NCBI GenBank assembly: GCA_002898375.1
Contig: BEIN01000001.1
Location: forward strand, 124,001-188,000
From: a bacterium HR37
GTDB lineage: Bacteria > Desulfobacterota_D > UBA1144 > Nemesobacterales > CSP1-2
Direction: 5' to 3'
Length of the DNA stretch: 64,000 nt
Shown: positions 55,015-63,772 of the stretch, piece after piece
Numbering within the stretch: the stretch's first letter is position 1
Layout: every line of letters begins with the position of its first letter
Notes under the pieces: generated by a model
Databases searched by the model: none
Told to the model about the DNA's origin: nothing
The model's input: only the letters and a program-made list of their open reading frames with translations
Program-made: the position numbers and the translations under genes

Positions 55015-55509
55015 TTAAGAGTCAAATTCCTTTAGCTCTTTCTCGATTTTCTTTATGTACTCTATTTCAACAGCTGTGGGGTTGTCCTCAGTTATATCGG
55101 TTTCAGCATCCTTGCTTTCCTTCCTGGATCTGTAGAGAAAGAAAGAAGCAATTACTGTTCCTGCTGTAAGTGCAAGGGCTGGAAAAAGCCAAAGAACCCA
55201 GTTTATACCCTTTGGTGGAGGGGCTCCAAGTATCGAGTCTCCATATCTCTCTACAAAGTAGGCTATTATCTCTTCCTTGGATTTTCCTTCCTCGAGCTGT
55301 TTTCTTATTATAGCTCGCATGTTTTTTGCAAGTTCTGAGTTAGATTCTGCAACTACCTGACCCTGGCAAACTGGGCACATAAGAAGTGATGCAATTTCCC
55401 TGACCTGGGTATCTATATCTTTTCCGAGTGTATGTGAGGCTATTGGTGATAGTGCAAAGACTATGTAGATAACTATATAGCTTAGCTTTGTTACTGTTCT
55501 TTTAATCAT
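55015..55509 (-). CDS. ccmH: Cytochrome c biogenesis protein CcmH/NrfF type
   Basis: The 164-residue product has a signal peptide (about 1-30), the redox motif LMCPVCQGQVV near residues 42-52, then KNMRAIIRKQLEEGKSKEEIIAYFVERYG and LGAPP, all family-typical. A membrane helix (about 107-130) and a charged cytoplasmic tail end the protein. It reduces apocytochrome CXXCH cysteines for heme attachment in system I. Its start overlaps the ccmG-like stop as ATGA. No ccmA-F gene is in the window, so the rest of system I would be elsewhere. It closes the copper-efflux operon. Confidence 0.92.
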   Translation of the reverse strand: MIKRTVTKLSYIVIYIVFALSPIASHTLGKDIDTQVREIASLLMCPVCQGQVVAESNSELAKNMRAIIRKQLEEGKSKEEIIAYFVERYGDSILGAPPPKGINWVLWLFPALALTAGTVIASFFLYRSRKESKDAETDITEDNPTAVEIEYIKKIEKELKEFDS

Positions 55510-56087: not shown

Positions 56088-56546
56088 TTATCTAGGTGGA
56101 TATGGGGTTGCAGTTGAGGGGTATCCAGCATATTTAGAGTCCAGTATGCTTCTAATCTCATATAATGTTTTACCTTGAGCAAGTAAATCCCTGGTTGTAA
56201 GAGCAATATCTACACATACATTGCAGCCTGTACCGTGAGCATCCAGGATAACTGTACCATTTCCCCTTATTTCCTTGACAAAACAGCTTTTGTTACTTGT
56301 GTGCCCTATGCTGTTACATCCGCAGTAGCAAGCCATGTGCCTAAGTGCTTTATGCTCTAAGATGGCAAACTCATATGCTTCTTTTGTTGTCTCAGGTAGG
56401 GTGTAAAAGTAACCTGGAAGCTGTAACCGGTGCTTTTCTGTATTAGGTGGAGTGTGAACTGTAGTGGACATGGTTTTGTATATTGCAAATACTACAACTG
56501 CAGAAGCAATAACTGCGGTAGTTAAAATCAGCTTTCTTTTTCTCAT
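56088..56546 (-). CDS. PCYCGC-motif-type membrane-anchored protein
   Basis: The 152-residue product has an N-terminal membrane anchor (about 6-24), then CYCGC near residue 75 with the following C (KSCF) and a second pair in GTGCNVC. The C-Y-C-G-C cluster with the downstream cysteines matches the poorly described PCYCGC family; here an Ala replaces the first Pro (ACYCGC). Function is unknown; metal or copper binding is a reasonable inference given the six cysteines and the operon. It is 72 bases after the cytochrome and 15 before the thioredoxin-like gene. Confidence 0.84.
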   Translation of the reverse strand: MRKRKLILTTAVIASAVVVFAIYKTMSTTVHTPPNTEKHRLQLPGYFYTLPETTKEAYEFAILEHKALRHMACYCGCNSIGHTSNKSCFVKEIRGNGTVILDAHGTGCNVCVDIALTTRDLLAQGKTLYEIRSILDSKYAGYPSTATPYPPR

Positions 56547-56618: not shown

Positions 56619-57182
56619 TTAGTGAGTGTGAATATTATCTCTGTGGTTGTGATGGTGGTTGTTGTTGTCGTGTTCTTTATAGTTACTCTTCCCTAGCATG
56701 TTTTTATACTCTTCTTCTGAGATCTCAGGGAGCCTCTCTATGAATGCCACTATTGACCATAGCTCCTTATCAGTGTGGGTAGGACCAAATGCAGGCATAC
56801 CTGTCATCTTAATACCGTGTTTTAGTATCCAGAAAAGTTCCTTTGAGTTCCATCTTCCTGCACTTTTTCCCAGATCAGGGGGCTTAGGGTTTAGGCCCTT
56901 ACCTATCTCTGAGGGATCGATACCGGGTGCTCCATGGCAGGTAGCGCACATCTCTTCGTAATGGTGGGCTCCCTTTATTATATCGTTATCTGAACTGGAA
57001 GGCGGAGTTATGTTTTTAGCCCTGACCTGTATGGAACGGGTTTTTACCACTTCAAATACCTTTGAGGCAAGCTCGGTGTGGGGTTTTGTTGCAGCAACAT
57101 TGTATATGCCTAAGTATACAAATACCGTAAATACCGCTACTACTATTACCACTAGAACTATTGTTGTTTTTAAAAAATTCAT
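56619..57182 (-). CDS. Membrane-anchored c-type cytochrome with a His/Asn-rich tail
   Basis: The 187-residue product starts at the ATG that overlaps the cusA stop (ATGA); the longer open frame runs inside cusA and is rejected. A membrane anchor (about 7-28) is followed by a single heme-c domain: C79-A-T-C82-H83 and Met129 in GMPAFG as the likely sixth ligand. The last 18 residues hold seven His and five Asn and look like a metal-binding tail. It acts in the periplasm, perhaps passing electrons or binding metal for the efflux pump. The CcmG/CcmH genes behind it would help its maturation. Confidence 0.92.
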   Translation of the reverse strand: MNFLKTTIVLVVIVVAVFTVFVYLGIYNVAATKPHTELASKVFEVVKTRSIQVRAKNITPPSSSDNDIIKGAHHYEEMCATCHGAPGIDPSEIGKGLNPKPPDLGKSAGRWNSKELFWILKHGIKMTGMPAFGPTHTDKELWSIVAFIERLPEISEEEYKNMLGKSNYKEHDNNNHHHNHRDNIHTH

Positions 57183-60100
57183 TTCTTGTTCTCCTCCTGT
57201 TTTAAGGTTCTTTCTTTCCATATTGCATAAACTGCAGGAATTATTACAAGGGTAAGGATAGTGGATGTAATAAGTCCCCCTACCATAGGTGCTGCAATCC
57301 TTTTCATCATATCTGCTCCTGCTCCATGGCTCCACATAAGGGGAAGAAGCCCCATTAGCATTGCCATAACGGTCATCATTTTTGGCCTTACCCGCTGTAC
57401 AGCTCCATCGTGTATTGCTCTTGCTAGACTCTCTAGATCGTATCTTCCTTCTTTTATCATTTTGTGGTAAAACTCATCCAGATAAATTATCATTACCACC
57501 CCTGTTTGGGCGGCAAGGCCCGCAAGAGCTATAAACCCGACCCAGGTTGCAACACTCATGTTGTAGCCCAAGATATAAATTAGCCATATTCCCCCGATCG
57601 TAGCAAAAGGCACAGATAAAAGTATTATTGCTGTCTCCACAAGGTTGTTGAAGTTAAGATAGAGAATAACAAATATTATAAGAAGGGTAAGGGGTACAAC
57701 TAGTTTTAAGCGCTCTTTTACCCTTAGCATGTACTCATACTGCCCACTCCAGGTAAGGTAGTACTTTGGTGGAAGCTTTACCTGGCTATTAACTATCTTT
57801 TTTGCTTCCTCCACATAGCTTCCTATGTCTCTTCCTTCTATATCTACGTATACGTATCCAACTTTTGTTGCCTCTTCAGTTTTTATCTCAGGTGGGCCCA
57901 TTACTATACGGATATCTGCAAGCTGTGTTATTGGAATCTGGGCCCCAACTGGGGTTGGAACAAGCACCCTTTCAAGCTTGTGGATCTCATCACGCAGTTC
58001 CCTTAAGTACCTGACGTTTACGGGGTATCTCTCGGGGCCTTCTATGGTCTGGGTTATGTTGTTTCCCCCTATTGCTGCCTCTATTATATCCTCTACATCT
58101 TCTACTCTTAGCCCATAACGGGCGGCTTCTCTACGCTTAACGTGAAAGTCTATGTAGTATCCACCTGTTACCCTCTCTGCGTAGACGCTTCTTGTTCCTG
58201 GTATTCCTTGTAGTATTCCTTCGATCTCTTTCCCTATTTTTTCTATGGTAGAAAGCTCTGGTCCAAATATCTTTATCCCTATGGGGGTTCTTATCCCGGT
58301 TGTTAACATATCTACCCTTGCCTTGATGGGCATGGTCCATGCATTTGTAAAACCCGGTATACGAACCGTTTGATTAAGCTCGCTGATAAGCTCCTCTGGG
58401 GTTATTGTTCTTTCTTCAGGCCATATGAGTTGAAGAAACTTTTTTACTGGCTTGGGTGCCCAGCTTGAATACCATCTTTTCTCCGGAATCTTACGCCACT
58501 CATCCTCAGGTTTTAAGATTATGTTTGTCTCTATCATAGATAAGGGGGCAGGGTCAGTTGGGGTTTCTGCTCTTCCTACCTTCCCAAAAACCGTTTGAAC
58601 CTCTGGAAAGCTTTTTATTATCTTGTCCCTAACCTGGATTACCTTCTGAGCCTCTGTAATTGATATTCCAGGGGTGGTCACAGGCATATCCATTAGAACC
58701 CCTTCATAGAGAGGAGGCATAAACTCTGAGCCTATCTTAAAGAACACGGGAACTGTAACTGCAAGGAGGATTAATGCAGTAAATACGGTTGTCTTCTTAA
58801 ACCTTAAAACGAATCTTACCACCGGATCATATGCACTGATTAGGAACCGACTTACAGGATTTTTCTTCTCAGGCACTATTCTCCCACGAACTAAGATGGT
58901 TGCTAGGGCAACCGTTAGGGTTATTGATAGTATGGAGGCAAAGGCCATGCCAAAGGTTTTTGTATATGCAAGGGGTTTAAAGAGTCTTCCTTCTTGGTAC
59001 TCAAGTGTAAAAACCGGAATAAAGGAAACGGTAATCACAAGAAGTGCAAAGAATATTGGTTTTCCAACTTCTTTCATAGCCTCTATCATTACATCCATCC
59101 TGTCTTGTTTCTTTCCCTGTTCTTCCCAGTGTTCAAGCCTCTTATGTATGTTTTCAACTATAACTATTGCGGCATCAACCATAGCTCCTATTGCAATGGC
59201 TATTCCTCCTAATGACATTATGTTGGATGTGATTTTCATATAATACATCGGAATAAAAGAAAAAAGGATTGCAAACGGGAGGGTAAAGATAACTACCAGT
59301 GCGGATCTAAAGTGCCAGAGAAACACAATACAGACTACACTTACAATGATACTCTCTTCTATGAGTTTTTCTGTAAGGGTTCTTATAGCCTTTCTTATCA
59401 GTTCAGAACGGTCATATGTTACAACCAGTTTTACTCCTTCTGGGAAAGCATCCTTAACCTCTTCTAGCTTCTTCTTTACCCTGTTAATTACGTCAAGTGC
59501 GTTTTCTCCAAACCGTGCAACCACAATACCTCCTACCACCTCTCCCTTTCCATCAAGCTCTGCAAGACCTCTTCGTATATCGGGTCCCAATTCTACATTT
59601 GCTATATCGTTTATTAGAACCGGGGTTCCCCTTTCTCCGTCTACAGATACAACTATGTTTCTTATATCATCCAGATTCTCTATATACCCCTTTCCCCTTA
59701 CTATGTATTCTCTGCCAGTCCACTCTATTACCCTACCTCCAACGTCGTTGTTGCTTTTCCTTATAGCATCGATAACGGTTTTTAGTGGAATGTTATAGGC
59801 AAGGAGTTTATTGGGATCTACGTTTACTTGGTACTGTTTCACAAAACCTCCTACGCTTGCAACCTCTGCAACACCTGGCACACTCTGTAGCCAGTACCTT
59901 AGATACCAGTCCTGAAATGACCGTAGTTCTGAGAGGTCATACCTGCCACTTTCATCAACCAGGGCATACTCAAAGACCCATCCAACTCCGGTTGCATCAG
60001 GACCTAAGGTTGGGCTAACCCCTTCTGGAAGCTTTCCTCTTAGTCCAGCTAGGTACTCAAGTACACGGCTTCTTGCCCAGTATATATCTGTTCCGTCTTC

Positions 60101-60391
60101 AAAGAGAACGTATACAAAGGAGAACCCAAACATTGATATTCCCCTTACAACGGTTACCTTTGGTGCAGCAAGGAGGGTTGTGGTAATGGGGTATGTGATC
60201 TGGTCTTCTACCAGGTCAGGGCTTCTTCCAGGCCACTCTGTAAAAACTATAACTTGAGTGTCTGAGAGATCAGGAATTGCATCAAGTGGTGTATTCTTTA
60301 AAGCCCATATTCCCCATACCGTTAAGAAAATAACCCCAAGGAAAACCAAAAAGCGTTTCTTTGATGAGAATGTAATTATCTTCTCTATCAT
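57179..60391 (-). CDS. cusA: CusA-like heavy-metal RND efflux pump (HME-RND)
   Basis: The 1070-residue product has the RND layout of 12 membrane helices and two large periplasmic domains. GAMVDAAIVIVENIHKRLE in helix 4 is the spelling seen in CusA and SilA, which move Cu(I)/Ag(I), rather than in CzcA types. P-G-x-x-x-x-x-V-E-x-x-I/V near the start also fits. It would take monovalent copper or silver from the periplasm to the TolC-like channel, driven by protons. It is 14 bases behind the MFP gene and overlaps the cytochrome gene by ATGA. Confidence 0.95.
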   Translation of the reverse strand: MIEKIITFSSKKRFLVFLGVIFLTVWGIWALKNTPLDAIPDLSDTQVIVFTEWPGRSPDLVEDQITYPITTTLLAAPKVTVVRGISMFGFSFVYVLFEDGTDIYWARSRVLEYLAGLRGKLPEGVSPTLGPDATGVGWVFEYALVDESGRYDLSELRSFQDWYLRYWLQSVPGVAEVASVGGFVKQYQVNVDPNKLLAYNIPLKTVIDAIRKSNNDVGGRVIEWTGREYIVRGKGYIENLDDIRNIVVSVDGERGTPVLINDIANVELGPDIRRGLAELDGKGEVVGGIVVARFGENALDVINRVKKKLEEVKDAFPEGVKLVVTYDRSELIRKAIRTLTEKLIEESIIVSVVCIVFLWHFRSALVVIFTLPFAILFSFIPMYYMKITSNIMSLGGIAIAIGAMVDAAIVIVENIHKRLEHWEEQGKKQDRMDVMIEAMKEVGKPIFFALLVITVSFIPVFTLEYQEGRLFKPLAYTKTFGMAFASILSITLTVALATILVRGRIVPEKKNPVSRFLISAYDPVVRFVLRFKKTTVFTALILLAVTVPVFFKIGSEFMPPLYEGVLMDMPVTTPGISITEAQKVIQVRDKIIKSFPEVQTVFGKVGRAETPTDPAPLSMIETNIILKPEDEWRKIPEKRWYSSWAPKPVKKFLQLIWPEERTITPEELISELNQTVRIPGFTNAWTMPIKARVDMLTTGIRTPIGIKIFGPELSTIEKIGKEIEGILQGIPGTRSVYAERVTGGYYIDFHVKRREAARYGLRVEDVEDIIEAAIGGNNITQTIEGPERYPVNVRYLRELRDEIHKLERVLVPTPVGAQIPITQLADIRIVMGPPEIKTEEATKVGYVYVDIEGRDIGSYVEEAKKIVNSQVKLPPKYYLTWSGQYEYMLRVKERLKLVVPLTLLIIFVILYLNFNNLVETAIILLSVPFATIGGIWLIYILGYNMSVATWVGFIALAGLAAQTGVVMIIYLDEFYHKMIKEGRYDLESLARAIHDGAVQRVRPKMMTVMAMLMGLLPLMWSHGAGADMMKRIAAPMVGGLITSTILTLVIIPAVYAIWKERTLKQEENKK

Positions 60392-60405: not shown

Positions 60406-61968
60406 TTACCTTACGTTAATTTCAAAGAATCGAGAAACAGGTGTCTTTCCAGGTATTTGCACTGTAACCCTTACCTGCCATGACCCTCCCATGGGTATGT
60501 TTACCTCTGCTATATATAGACCATCTTTAACGTGCCTGCCTTCTGCTGAAACACTCATAGCCGGCATTCCCATAGAGGGCATTGGTGGCATATGAAGTAG
60601 AACATCTACTTTTGCATCTTTTATAGGGTTTTTGTCTTTGTCAGTAAGGGTAATCTTAAATGTGTTGTCTCCAACCTTGGGGAATTCTCCTTCCGGTGTA
60701 AAAGAGATATTTACCTCCTTTGGGGTTTCCGAAACTGTCTCGCTTCCTCCGTGCGCATGTCCAGGTGTCCCTGTGCCAAATGCTTCTATTGCTGCTTTAA
60801 GTCTGCTTTCGGAATCCACAAGGAAATTAGCGCTTCTTACAACTGTTTCACCCTCTTTTAGCCCTTTTAAAATCTCATAGTACTGACCGGCTTTTTGTCC
60901 AACTTTTACTTCTCTTGGTTCAAAGGCTCCATCTTCCATTGCAACGAATACTATTTTTCTTTCACCAGTGTCAATTACGGAATCCTCTGATATGGCCAGT
61001 TTCTCTCCAAGAGGTATTTTTAATTCCACATTTGCATACATACCGGGTTTCAGTTTGTTGTCTTCGTTTTTAAACTCAAACCTTACTTTTGCTGTTCTGG
61101 TCTTTGTTTCTAATGTGGGATAGATGTAGGTGACCTTTCCATGGAAAACCTCTCCCGGATAGTAGGAAAGGGTAAGGGTTGCTTCCTGTCCTTCCTTAAT
61201 AAGTGGGAGTTCGTATTCATAGATATCTGCAAGAACCCAAACGGTTGATAGATCCACAATCTCAAAAATGACCTCATTTGGCATAATCATCTTCTCTGGA
61301 AATGCCTCACGCTTTGTAACATAGCCACTTATGGGTGAGTAGAGTGTAAGGTACTTAAGGGGTTTTCCGGTGTTTTCGACTTTCTTTATTTCTCTTTCCG
61401 GAATGTCCCAGAGTAGGAGCCTTCTACGGGTGGCTTCAAGCAGGGATCTTGCACTCGAGGATATCTCAGGGAAAGAACTTTTTCCAAATGAATCGTGGGC
61501 TTTAAGGGCAAGCAGGTATTCTTCCTGTGTAGATACAAGTTCTGGGCTATAGATGGTAAAAAGTGGTTCTCCTCTTTTTACGTATTTCCCCACGTAGTTT
61601 GCAAAAACTTCTTTTACCCATCCGCTGAATTTTACACTAACCCTTGCAATCTTTGTTTCATCAGCCTCGACTATTCCCACCGTTCTTATGTCTCTTACAA
61701 GTCTCCTTGTGGTTACCTCATCCGTTTTTATCCCAATAATCTGTTGTCTCTCAGGACTTATCCATACTGTTGTAAAACCTTCGGGGCTTTTAGGTTTATG
61801 TAGTGTGTTTGTTTCTCTGTTTTCTACCTTTTCCTCCGTTTTCTCTTCTGTTTGAGTGGTGTGTTTTTTGTGTTCCAAATCCTTTGATAGAGAGATTGCT
61901 ATTGTTATAAGCATAAAGACAGACAAAAATGTAACAACGGTTTTAAGCACAATAGCGGTTTTTTTCAT
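60406..61968 (-). CDS. cusB: CusB-like membrane fusion protein with a C-terminal FixH/YtkA-like domain
   Basis: The 520-residue product has a signal/anchor helix (about 8-27), a barrel-sandwich hybrid and helical hairpin with YSPELVSTQEEYL near 155-167, beta-barrel and membrane-proximal domains to about 385, then a His/Gly/Thr linker. The last 105 residues (from about 415) have G-D-N-T-F, the Met-rich MPPMPSMGMPAM, and a W-Q-V-R-V end typical of FixH/YtkA domains. Such a domain could bind Cu(I) through its methionines. The fusion is longer than plain CusB, about 407 residues in E. coli. It sits between cusC (34 bases) and cusA (14 bases). Confidence 0.92.
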   Translation of the reverse strand: MKKTAIVLKTVVTFLSVFMLITIAISLSKDLEHKKHTTQTEEKTEEKVENRETNTLHKPKSPEGFTTVWISPERQQIIGIKTDEVTTRRLVRDIRTVGIVEADETKIARVSVKFSGWVKEVFANYVGKYVKRGEPLFTIYSPELVSTQEEYLLALKAHDSFGKSSFPEISSSARSLLEATRRRLLLWDIPEREIKKVENTGKPLKYLTLYSPISGYVTKREAFPEKMIMPNEVIFEIVDLSTVWVLADIYEYELPLIKEGQEATLTLSYYPGEVFHGKVTYIYPTLETKTRTAKVRFEFKNEDNKLKPGMYANVELKIPLGEKLAISEDSVIDTGERKIVFVAMEDGAFEPREVKVGQKAGQYYEILKGLKEGETVVRSANFLVDSESRLKAAIEAFGTGTPGHAHGGSETVSETPKEVNISFTPEGEFPKVGDNTFKITLTDKDKNPIKDAKVDVLLHMPPMPSMGMPAMSVSAEGRHVKDGLYIAEVNIPMGGSWQVRVTVQIPGKTPVSRFFEINVR

Positions 61969-63379: not shown

Positions 63380-63772
63380 TCATAGGATAAGGGAGAGGTT
63401 TTTAAGGAAAAGCTCAGGTGGTTTGAGTTTTACAAGCCTGCTTTCTACTATAGAAGGATAAAAAGCCTTTTCCCGCTCTATAACGTGTGAGATGTAGAAA
63501 AAGTTAAAAGCTAGGATGGCTTTGGCAAGAGAATTAAAGTCACTGTTTTGAGGGATGCTTGGTAGCATGTACTTACAGGTAAAAGATAGGTGTTTTGGTG
63601 GGTTTGTCTCTTTATAGGAGGTTTTAGCAGTGTTTGTGCCTTGGTGGTTACCCTCTGAAGTGGAATGACAGTTGGCTTCTCTTAAGGATATTTCCTGGAA
63701 GCAGAGATCAGCACACAAACCTGTGTAGCAAAAAAGCGTAACAAAAACAAAAAGCAGGCTAAGAAATCTCAT
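63380..63772 (-). CDS. Secreted Cys/His-containing protein leading the copper operon, unknown function
   Basis: The 130-residue product has a clear signal peptide (hydrophobic to LCA, about residue 21). The mature part begins D-L-C and holds three cysteines (24, 35, 66), with His36, His43 and His61 near two of them, in a Ser/Thr/Asn-rich stretch, then a helical C-terminus with a hydrophobic patch. I do not recognise the family. Being first in the operon after the only clear promoter, a periplasmic metal-sensing or metal-carrying role is possible. A start 9 bases after the -10 box, without an SD, suggests a leaderless mRNA. Confidence 0.78.
   Translation of the reverse strand: MRFLSLLFVFVTLFCYTGLCADLCFQEISLREANCHSTSEGNHQGTNTAKTSYKETNPPKHLSFTCKYMLPSIPQNSDFNSLAKAILAFNFFYISHVIEREKAFYPSIVESRLVKLKPPELFLKNLSLIL

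Follow-up and report, generated by a model that had tools for sequence, protein, structure and literature searches.

CusF, the periplasmic Cu(I) chaperone of the CusCFBA system, is a small beta barrel of the Met/Trp type, and SCO1/SenC proteins are extracytoplasmic, carry thiols and have ties to both copper and respiration. CcmH maintains thiols in readiness for the assembly of cytochrome c. Durand et al. (2015) reportedly considered that process together with copper. Excess copper has been reported, in the portion of the source available to us, to hit cytochrome c maturation (PMC8456105), and a protein family at the junction of the two processes would be a testable molecule for that link. CcmH is described, again in the available portion of the source, as a three-helix bundle fold with a CxxC (PMC3601427).

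The PCYCGC family (PF13798; NF041379, CYCXC family (seleno)protein, OS_HP4) is widespread and takes its name from a motif, neither the Pfam nor the NCBIfam entry giving a function for it. A PCYCGC lipoprotein of Parageobacillus, likewise without known function, has seven conserved cysteines if the lipobox cysteine is included (PMC13068155, in the portion available). As far as the available portions of a review (PMC13188914) and of PMC9312934 go, the family is listed among UxxC selenoproteins, so that the use of selenocysteine in it is already known. Searches of the open-licence PMC literature gave no paper that links PCYCGC/PF13798 with either copper or CcmH.

The window (the whole stretch of 64,000 nucleotides analysed here) contains one such gene, within a run of genes all on the minus strand in the order CusC-CusB-CusA-cytochrome c-PCYCGC-CcmG-CcmH. 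The features of the run are as follows.

55015..55509, minus strand: CcmH, 164 aa (PF03918), the sole CcmH found in the window genome
55506..56072, minus strand: CcmG/TlpA/ResA-like thiol-disulfide protein, 188 aa, with WCAPC (PF00578)
56088..56546, minus strand: PCYCGC (PF13798) protein, 152 aa; in the structural model a membrane helix at residues 2-26, a disordered linker and a confident domain from about residue 45
56214..56225, minus strand: CNVC, C108-x-x-C111; in 22/103 scored members codon 108 is TGA (taken as selenocysteine)
56283..56303, minus strand: H82 to C88, both residues present in 106/106 members
56316..56330, minus strand: CYCGC motif, residues 73-77, with C73, C75 and C77 in 106/106 aligned members
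56619..57182, minus strand: c-type cytochrome with one CxxCH (PF13442); start picked by eye (MNFLK...) within the stretch scanned, 56619-57269
57179..60391, minus strand: CusA/CzcA family RND permease, 1070 aa (TIGR00914, 1214 bits against a cut-off of 701)
60406..61968, minus strand: CusB-type periplasmic adaptor with a C-terminal YtkA domain, 520 aa
62003..63253, minus strand: outer membrane efflux protein in the CusC position, 416 aa (PF02321)
63380..63772, minus strand: first ORF of the Cus run, small (130 aa), with cysteines and without a Pfam family

From CusC to CcmH the genes are separated by 34 bp, 14 bp, an overlap, 72 bp, 15 bp and an overlap, a spacing which suggests that the run is transcribed as one unit. 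Promoter and terminator scans gave results at or below chance, the best-scoring promoter-like site (63810-63782, not above chance) lying just ahead of the small ORF at 63380-63772. An outer membrane efflux protein, a CusB-type adaptor and a CusA-type permease stand together in the run, as in a CusCBA efflux operon. The pump is probably specific for Cu(I)/Ag(I), as the best NCBIfam match of its adaptor is CusB (164 bits, below the cut-off of 390). The permease also has three segments which, judged by eye against E. coli CusA, are probably those of the CusA methionine triad. The initial annotation had placed the PCYCGC gene between a cytochrome and a thioredoxin in a pump run, and this placement holds, with a PF13442 cytochrome upstream and a PF00578 protein downstream on the same strand; its list of genes had omitted CcmH, which closes the run. 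Elsewhere in the window genome there are three matches to Cytochrom_C_asm, of which two lie on the contig of the window, around 338-340 kb.

The PCYCGC gene, single-copy in the window genome, starts with ATG, and its product of 152 aa matches PF13798 with 97.2 bits (E 1.1e-27) against a gathering cut-off of 25, its six cysteines being those of CYCGC (C73, C75, C77) and exactly three others (C88, C108, C111). The description first given to it, a PCYCGC-type protein with CYCGC and three more cysteines at 56088-56546, was thus accurate. The window protein has the conserved CxCGC plus H, C, H, CxxC pattern of PF13798, shared with the NF041379 family, from which it differs in carrying Cys rather than Sec at position 108, in reading ACYCGC rather than PCYCGC, and in scoring 62.4 bits against the NF041379 cut-off of 90. 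It does not reach the gathering cut-off of PF03918 (CcmH; 25 bits), with no CcmH match at E 0.001. In an alignment of 106 members, every row has C73, C75, C77, H82 and C88; 105 have C108 (Sec counted as Cys) and C111, the remaining row being cut; and 101 have H104, which is replaced by Met in the other five.

Position 108 could be scored for selenocysteine in 103 members, the two of 105 dropped being L037 (different spacing) and one with an N. TGA occupies this position in 22 of them, the Sec forms, in which the RNA just downstream folds more strongly (mean z -1.5 vs -0.19 for the 81 Cys forms, p 1.4e-5). All five scored rows with Met104 are Sec forms, a pairing seen only in the present alignment. 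A selenocysteine in a UxxC pair fits a redox nucleophile. It is no proof of redox catalysis by itself, because metal-resistance proteins also use selenocysteine according to the available portion of the review cited above (PMC13188914). In the annotation of a Thermomicrobium roseum plasmid, the PCYCGC gene stops at an in-frame TGA (L011, 8193-8195) that aligns with the Sec position; the public gene model is therefore probably cut short.

A resemblance that the initial annotation did not mention is the one to CcmH. Like CcmH/NrfF (PF03918), PCYCGC proteins have a membrane anchor and, by prediction, a small helical extracytoplasmic domain, with a CxxC followed by a helical hairpin with a 'G-K-S-x-x-E-I ... 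Y' pattern. Alignment of profiles with hhalign (106 PCYCGC against 40 CcmH sequences) gave a probability of 87.7 (P 3.4e-6), and 87.4 after removal of four CxCGC-type CcmH rows. Against 66 decoy families the CcmH cluster itself came top (52.9), with TlpA at 6, all others below 1 and reversed CcmH at 0.3; the best non-CcmH decoy had a P of 0.0063. A smaller profile pair (A2/A3) reached 54.9 over 24 columns, the CcmG profile 9.6, and the PCYCGC cysteine pair that matches the CcmH pair varies with the alignment used. The AlphaFold2 model of the window protein (domain pLDDT about 98) has the N-domain of E. coli CcmH (2kw0) as its top Foldseek match in the PDB, with a weak E of 0.52 and a TM of 0.57 by target, and VIA-align gave it a weak Z of 3.9 to CcmH, tied with MerR proteins. 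With a Chloroflexota member placed first for modelling, the CcmH structures 2hl7 and 2kw0 ranked 2 and 3 in Foldseek (E at least 0.5), and 2kw0 (Z 4.2) and 2hl7 (Z 4.0) came first and second in VIA-align, the next being 2.9, all of these scores being weak. The sequence search against solved structures yielded nothing real (Saposin at E 0.25).

Unlike CcmH/NrfF, PCYCGC has the extra CYCGC and an inserted Cys/His hairpin, and no direct match to the Pfam CcmH family; a separate true CcmH adjoins the PCYCGC gene in the window genome. We consider it likely that PCYCGC is a remote relative of CcmH, outside PF03918 itself, and a CcmH-like frame accounts for the protein better than the initial reading. 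In L136 one 283-aa ORF matches Pfam CcmH (5e-10) as well as PCYCGC (3e-9); a CusB-type gene lies about 4 kb from it and a P-type ATPase about 3 kb. This ORF is a single case, from a phylum in which 1 of 47 genomes has PCYCGC. CcmH-family proteins carrying CxCGC and further Cys/His (L202, L203, L204) are possible links between CcmH and PCYCGC.

The reading that we prefer, tentatively and with somewhat less than even confidence, is that PCYCGC is a CcmH-related thiol/selenol relay acting where periplasmic Cu(I) meets cytochrome c thioreduction. The protein would be a membrane-anchored extracytoplasmic thiol protein, a selenol protein in some lineages, whose C-terminal CxxC/UxxC would form a redox-active pair, re-reduced by a partner of the TlpA/CcmG type that would itself be fed by CcdA or DsbD. 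The invariant CYCGC, C88 and H82, together with the usual H104, would make up a second site, whose most likely ligand is Cu(I). PCYCGC may remove Cu(I) from the thiols that serve in the assembly of cytochrome c and cuproproteins, or shield them from it, and at loci that also encode a Cus pump it may hand the metal on. A bolder version, which we regard as doubtful, makes PCYCGC a copper-hardened offshoot of CcmH, that is, a metal-tolerant second thioreduction branch from which Cu(I) is stripped to Cus pumps and which uses Sec where available; if true, copper export and cytochrome c maturation would be joined directly in one family. For the PCYCGC family, CcmH thereby becomes a likely relative, position 108 (Sec in many lineages) a likely active residue, and TlpA/CcmG and CcdA/DsbD likely partners, with Cus pumps and cytochrome c assembly as two settings that recur.

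Within the phylum of the window genome the steady partner of PCYCGC is ccmG-ccmH, not the pump. In 8 of its 57 genomes, namely the window genome plus seven small marine ones, PCYCGC is present, and in all eight it lies directly upstream of ccmG-ccmH, the window genome being the only one with a pump in the PCYCGC-CcmG-CcmH run. The seven marine loci read CcdA-malic enzyme-PCYCGC-CcmG-CcmH. As seven other genomes of the marine family keep malic enzyme-CcmG-CcmH without PCYCGC, the gene is dispensable. The window protein joins its marine relatives in the tree at 100/98, on few columns and with a bootstrap that had not settled. To the right of the window end (L002, 14267-18211) come a cation efflux gene, malic enzyme, CcdA and a second TlpA, which gives the marine order with the Cus genes and a few others interposed; about 11 kb with the Cus genes stand as if inserted between malic enzyme and PCYCGC. 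A vertically inherited PCYCGC-CcmG-CcmH cluster alongside which a pump has become lodged fits best. In genomes of the same family as the window genome, CusA lies upstream of CcmG-CcmH in G003 and G005, both without PCYCGC, and a cytochrome c gene directly precedes CcmG-CcmH in G001 and G005 (the contigs of G004 and G006 are too short to judge these surroundings). We no longer regard the pump as a neighbour by chance alone, given the position of CusA in G003 and G005 and the recurrence of CusC/CusB beside PCYCGC in another phylum.

These observations bear on an alternative in which PCYCGC serves cytochrome c biogenesis alone, as an accessory reductant of the apocytochrome CxxCH similar to CcmH, the copper pump of the window being incidental. 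The constant PCYCGC-CcmG-CcmH order (8/8), the likeness to CcmH and the tree, which fits vertical descent with the ccm genes, all agree with it, as do runs with ResB-CcsA and the cytochrome b/Rieske genes that neighbour PCYCGC at some loci elsewhere. We nevertheless consider it unlikely, since it leaves unexplained the plasmid copper islands and the CusC/CusB(/CusA) runs of another phylum in which no ccm gene of the panel lies within 4.5 kb (10/40, see below). Adjacency to CcmH was not seen outside the window phylum in the eight covered PCYCGC genomes of the domain-wide sample.

That sample comprised 386 genomes, 30 of which have a PCYCGC match: the eight of the window phylum and 22 others with 25 loci. 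Distances were read by eye, the limits (3, 4 and 4.1 kb) were chosen after viewing the tables, and expectations derive from genome-wide counts. On these terms, AhpC-TSA (TlpA/AhpC-type) redoxins lie within 3 kb of PCYCGC at at least 6 of the 25 loci (0.57 expected), P-type ATPases within 4 kb at 4 (0.16 expected; 3 within 3 kb), CusB-type HlyD_D23 genes within 4.1 kb at at least 3 (0.43 expected) and Cytochrom_C_asm within 3 kb at 2 (0.18 expected). Copper-linked loci were those of G119, G316 and G250. Among the matches listed, 19 of the 25 loci have neither a CusB-type gene nor a P-type ATPase, one locus having both.

The phylum of G316 has a match in 68 of 345 genomes (63 over the cut-off). 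We took 40 loci from 40 genomes down the list by score, leaving out G450 and G459 (genera already in), G179 and G316 (in the domain-wide sample) and second copies; the resulting counts are lower bounds, because several contigs end close to the PCYCGC gene. CusC/CusB adjoin PCYCGC at 10 of the 40 loci, nine of them with CusA, from 10 genera and 5 families, and at these 10 no ccm gene of the panel lies within 4.5 kb. A usual order is PCYCGC-YtkA-CusC-CusB-CusA. The remaining loci are varied: TlpA within 531 bp of PCYCGC (7/40), PCYCGC before a ResB-CcsA-TlpA run (2/40), a P-type ATPase nearby (2/40), YtkA without CusC/CusB (1/40), a Fer4-type membrane gene alone (1/40) and none of the panel genes (17/40). 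The locus L124 reads PCYCGC-TPR-ResB-CcsA.

The PCYCGC-YtkA-CusC-CusB-CusA order would suit a plain Cu(I) or soft-metal chaperone or buffer without redox cycling, filling for these pumps the role that CusF has in E. coli, and PCYCGC is, like CusF, a small extracytoplasmic protein encoded in a Cus run, with six cysteines and two histidines nearly invariant. Selenocysteine, too, can serve metal-resistance proteins in the available portion of the review (PMC13188914). Unlike CusF, PCYCGC is by prediction a Cys/His-rich helical protein, and both its likeness to CcmH and its association with TlpA, CcdA and DsbD suggest thiol exchange. A Burkholderia plasmid run reads cusBA-copper protein-dsbD-PCYCGC, and Burkholderia runs thus already have a copper-binding protein beside CusA in addition to PCYCGC. 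With a pump missing from the majority of loci as well, we find the chaperone explanation distinctly unlikely.

The relay that we prefer would draw on both settings, of which the copper one is seen again on plasmids, where the copies of Exiguobacterium and Priestia are held in copper islands. On the Paenibacillus plasmid a heavy-metal ATPase lies about 2 kb from PCYCGC, and the Thermomicrobium copy is outside a copper island (the Geobacillus copy, unannotated, is not in this comparison).

Further loci were obtained with the alignment as query, the best 80 of 295 being kept, so that they lean to close relatives, and neighbours were recorded within 5 kb; as a single-sequence query, the window protein found no match in viral_contigs or genome_contigs. 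Seven of the 80 are marine loci, with CcmG, CcmH and CcdA in 7/7; they belong to the marine genomes described above and are counted once. Among the 47 Bacilli loci a P-type ATPase, irrespective of metal, is present in 8 (six being close kin) and SCO in 3. The 22 Chloroflexota loci have a COX2-cupredoxin-cytochrome c gene in 14, often directly downstream, and a P-type ATPase in 5, and 1 of the remaining 4 loci has the COX2 set. The 14/22 Chloroflexota loci and the SCO genes adjoining PCYCGC in 3/47 Bacilli loci are what one would expect of an assembly factor for the copper sites of cupredoxin/COX2-type proteins, comparable to SCO. No such neighbour occurs in the window, in its relatives or at Cus-type loci; this role seems quite improbable to us. 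As a difference from SCO1/SenC, the PCYCGC models have no thioredoxin-fold match listed. The mixed neighbours in Bacilli and the 17/40 loci of the G316 phylum with none of the panel genes could also mean that PCYCGC is an extracytoplasmic thiol/selenol reductase or peroxidase of general use, tied to no one pathway, its neighbours being those of stress islands, an explanation that we regard as very improbable given that redoxins, P-type ATPases and Cus genes are co-located with PCYCGC above expectation.

After the Bacilli, Chloroflexota and domain-wide surveys we dropped the idea of PCYCGC as a copper-specific gene. The initial annotation had proposed that the cysteines hold Cu(I) or are kept reduced by the CcmG-like protein, a proposal to be given up if most members occurred without copper genes and bound no metal. 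The association with copper recurs in distant lineages (10/40 loci with CusC/CusB, and the plasmid islands), and most members have no copper gene nearby, as at the 19/25 loci mentioned above, so that the first part of that condition applies to some extent. Both proposals may still stand, reduction by the CcmG-like protein appearing the better supported from context (CcmG adjoins PCYCGC in 8/8 genomes, and a TlpA/AhpC-type protein lies within 3 kb at at least 6/25 loci).

In Anaerolineae (L045, 2051-5645, and others) PCYCGC, a cupredoxin/COX2 gene, a Fer4_5 membrane protein and a COX2 with cytochrome c form a recurring run, which looks like an unnamed electron-transfer unit. In several genomes a gene for a small exported protein, with a cysteine motif resembling CPLCG..YGYC, immediately precedes PCYCGC-YtkA-CusCBA (L265, 4371-4688; L281, 4480-4782; L143, 7793-8107), and in L265 and L281 it stands behind a two-component pair.
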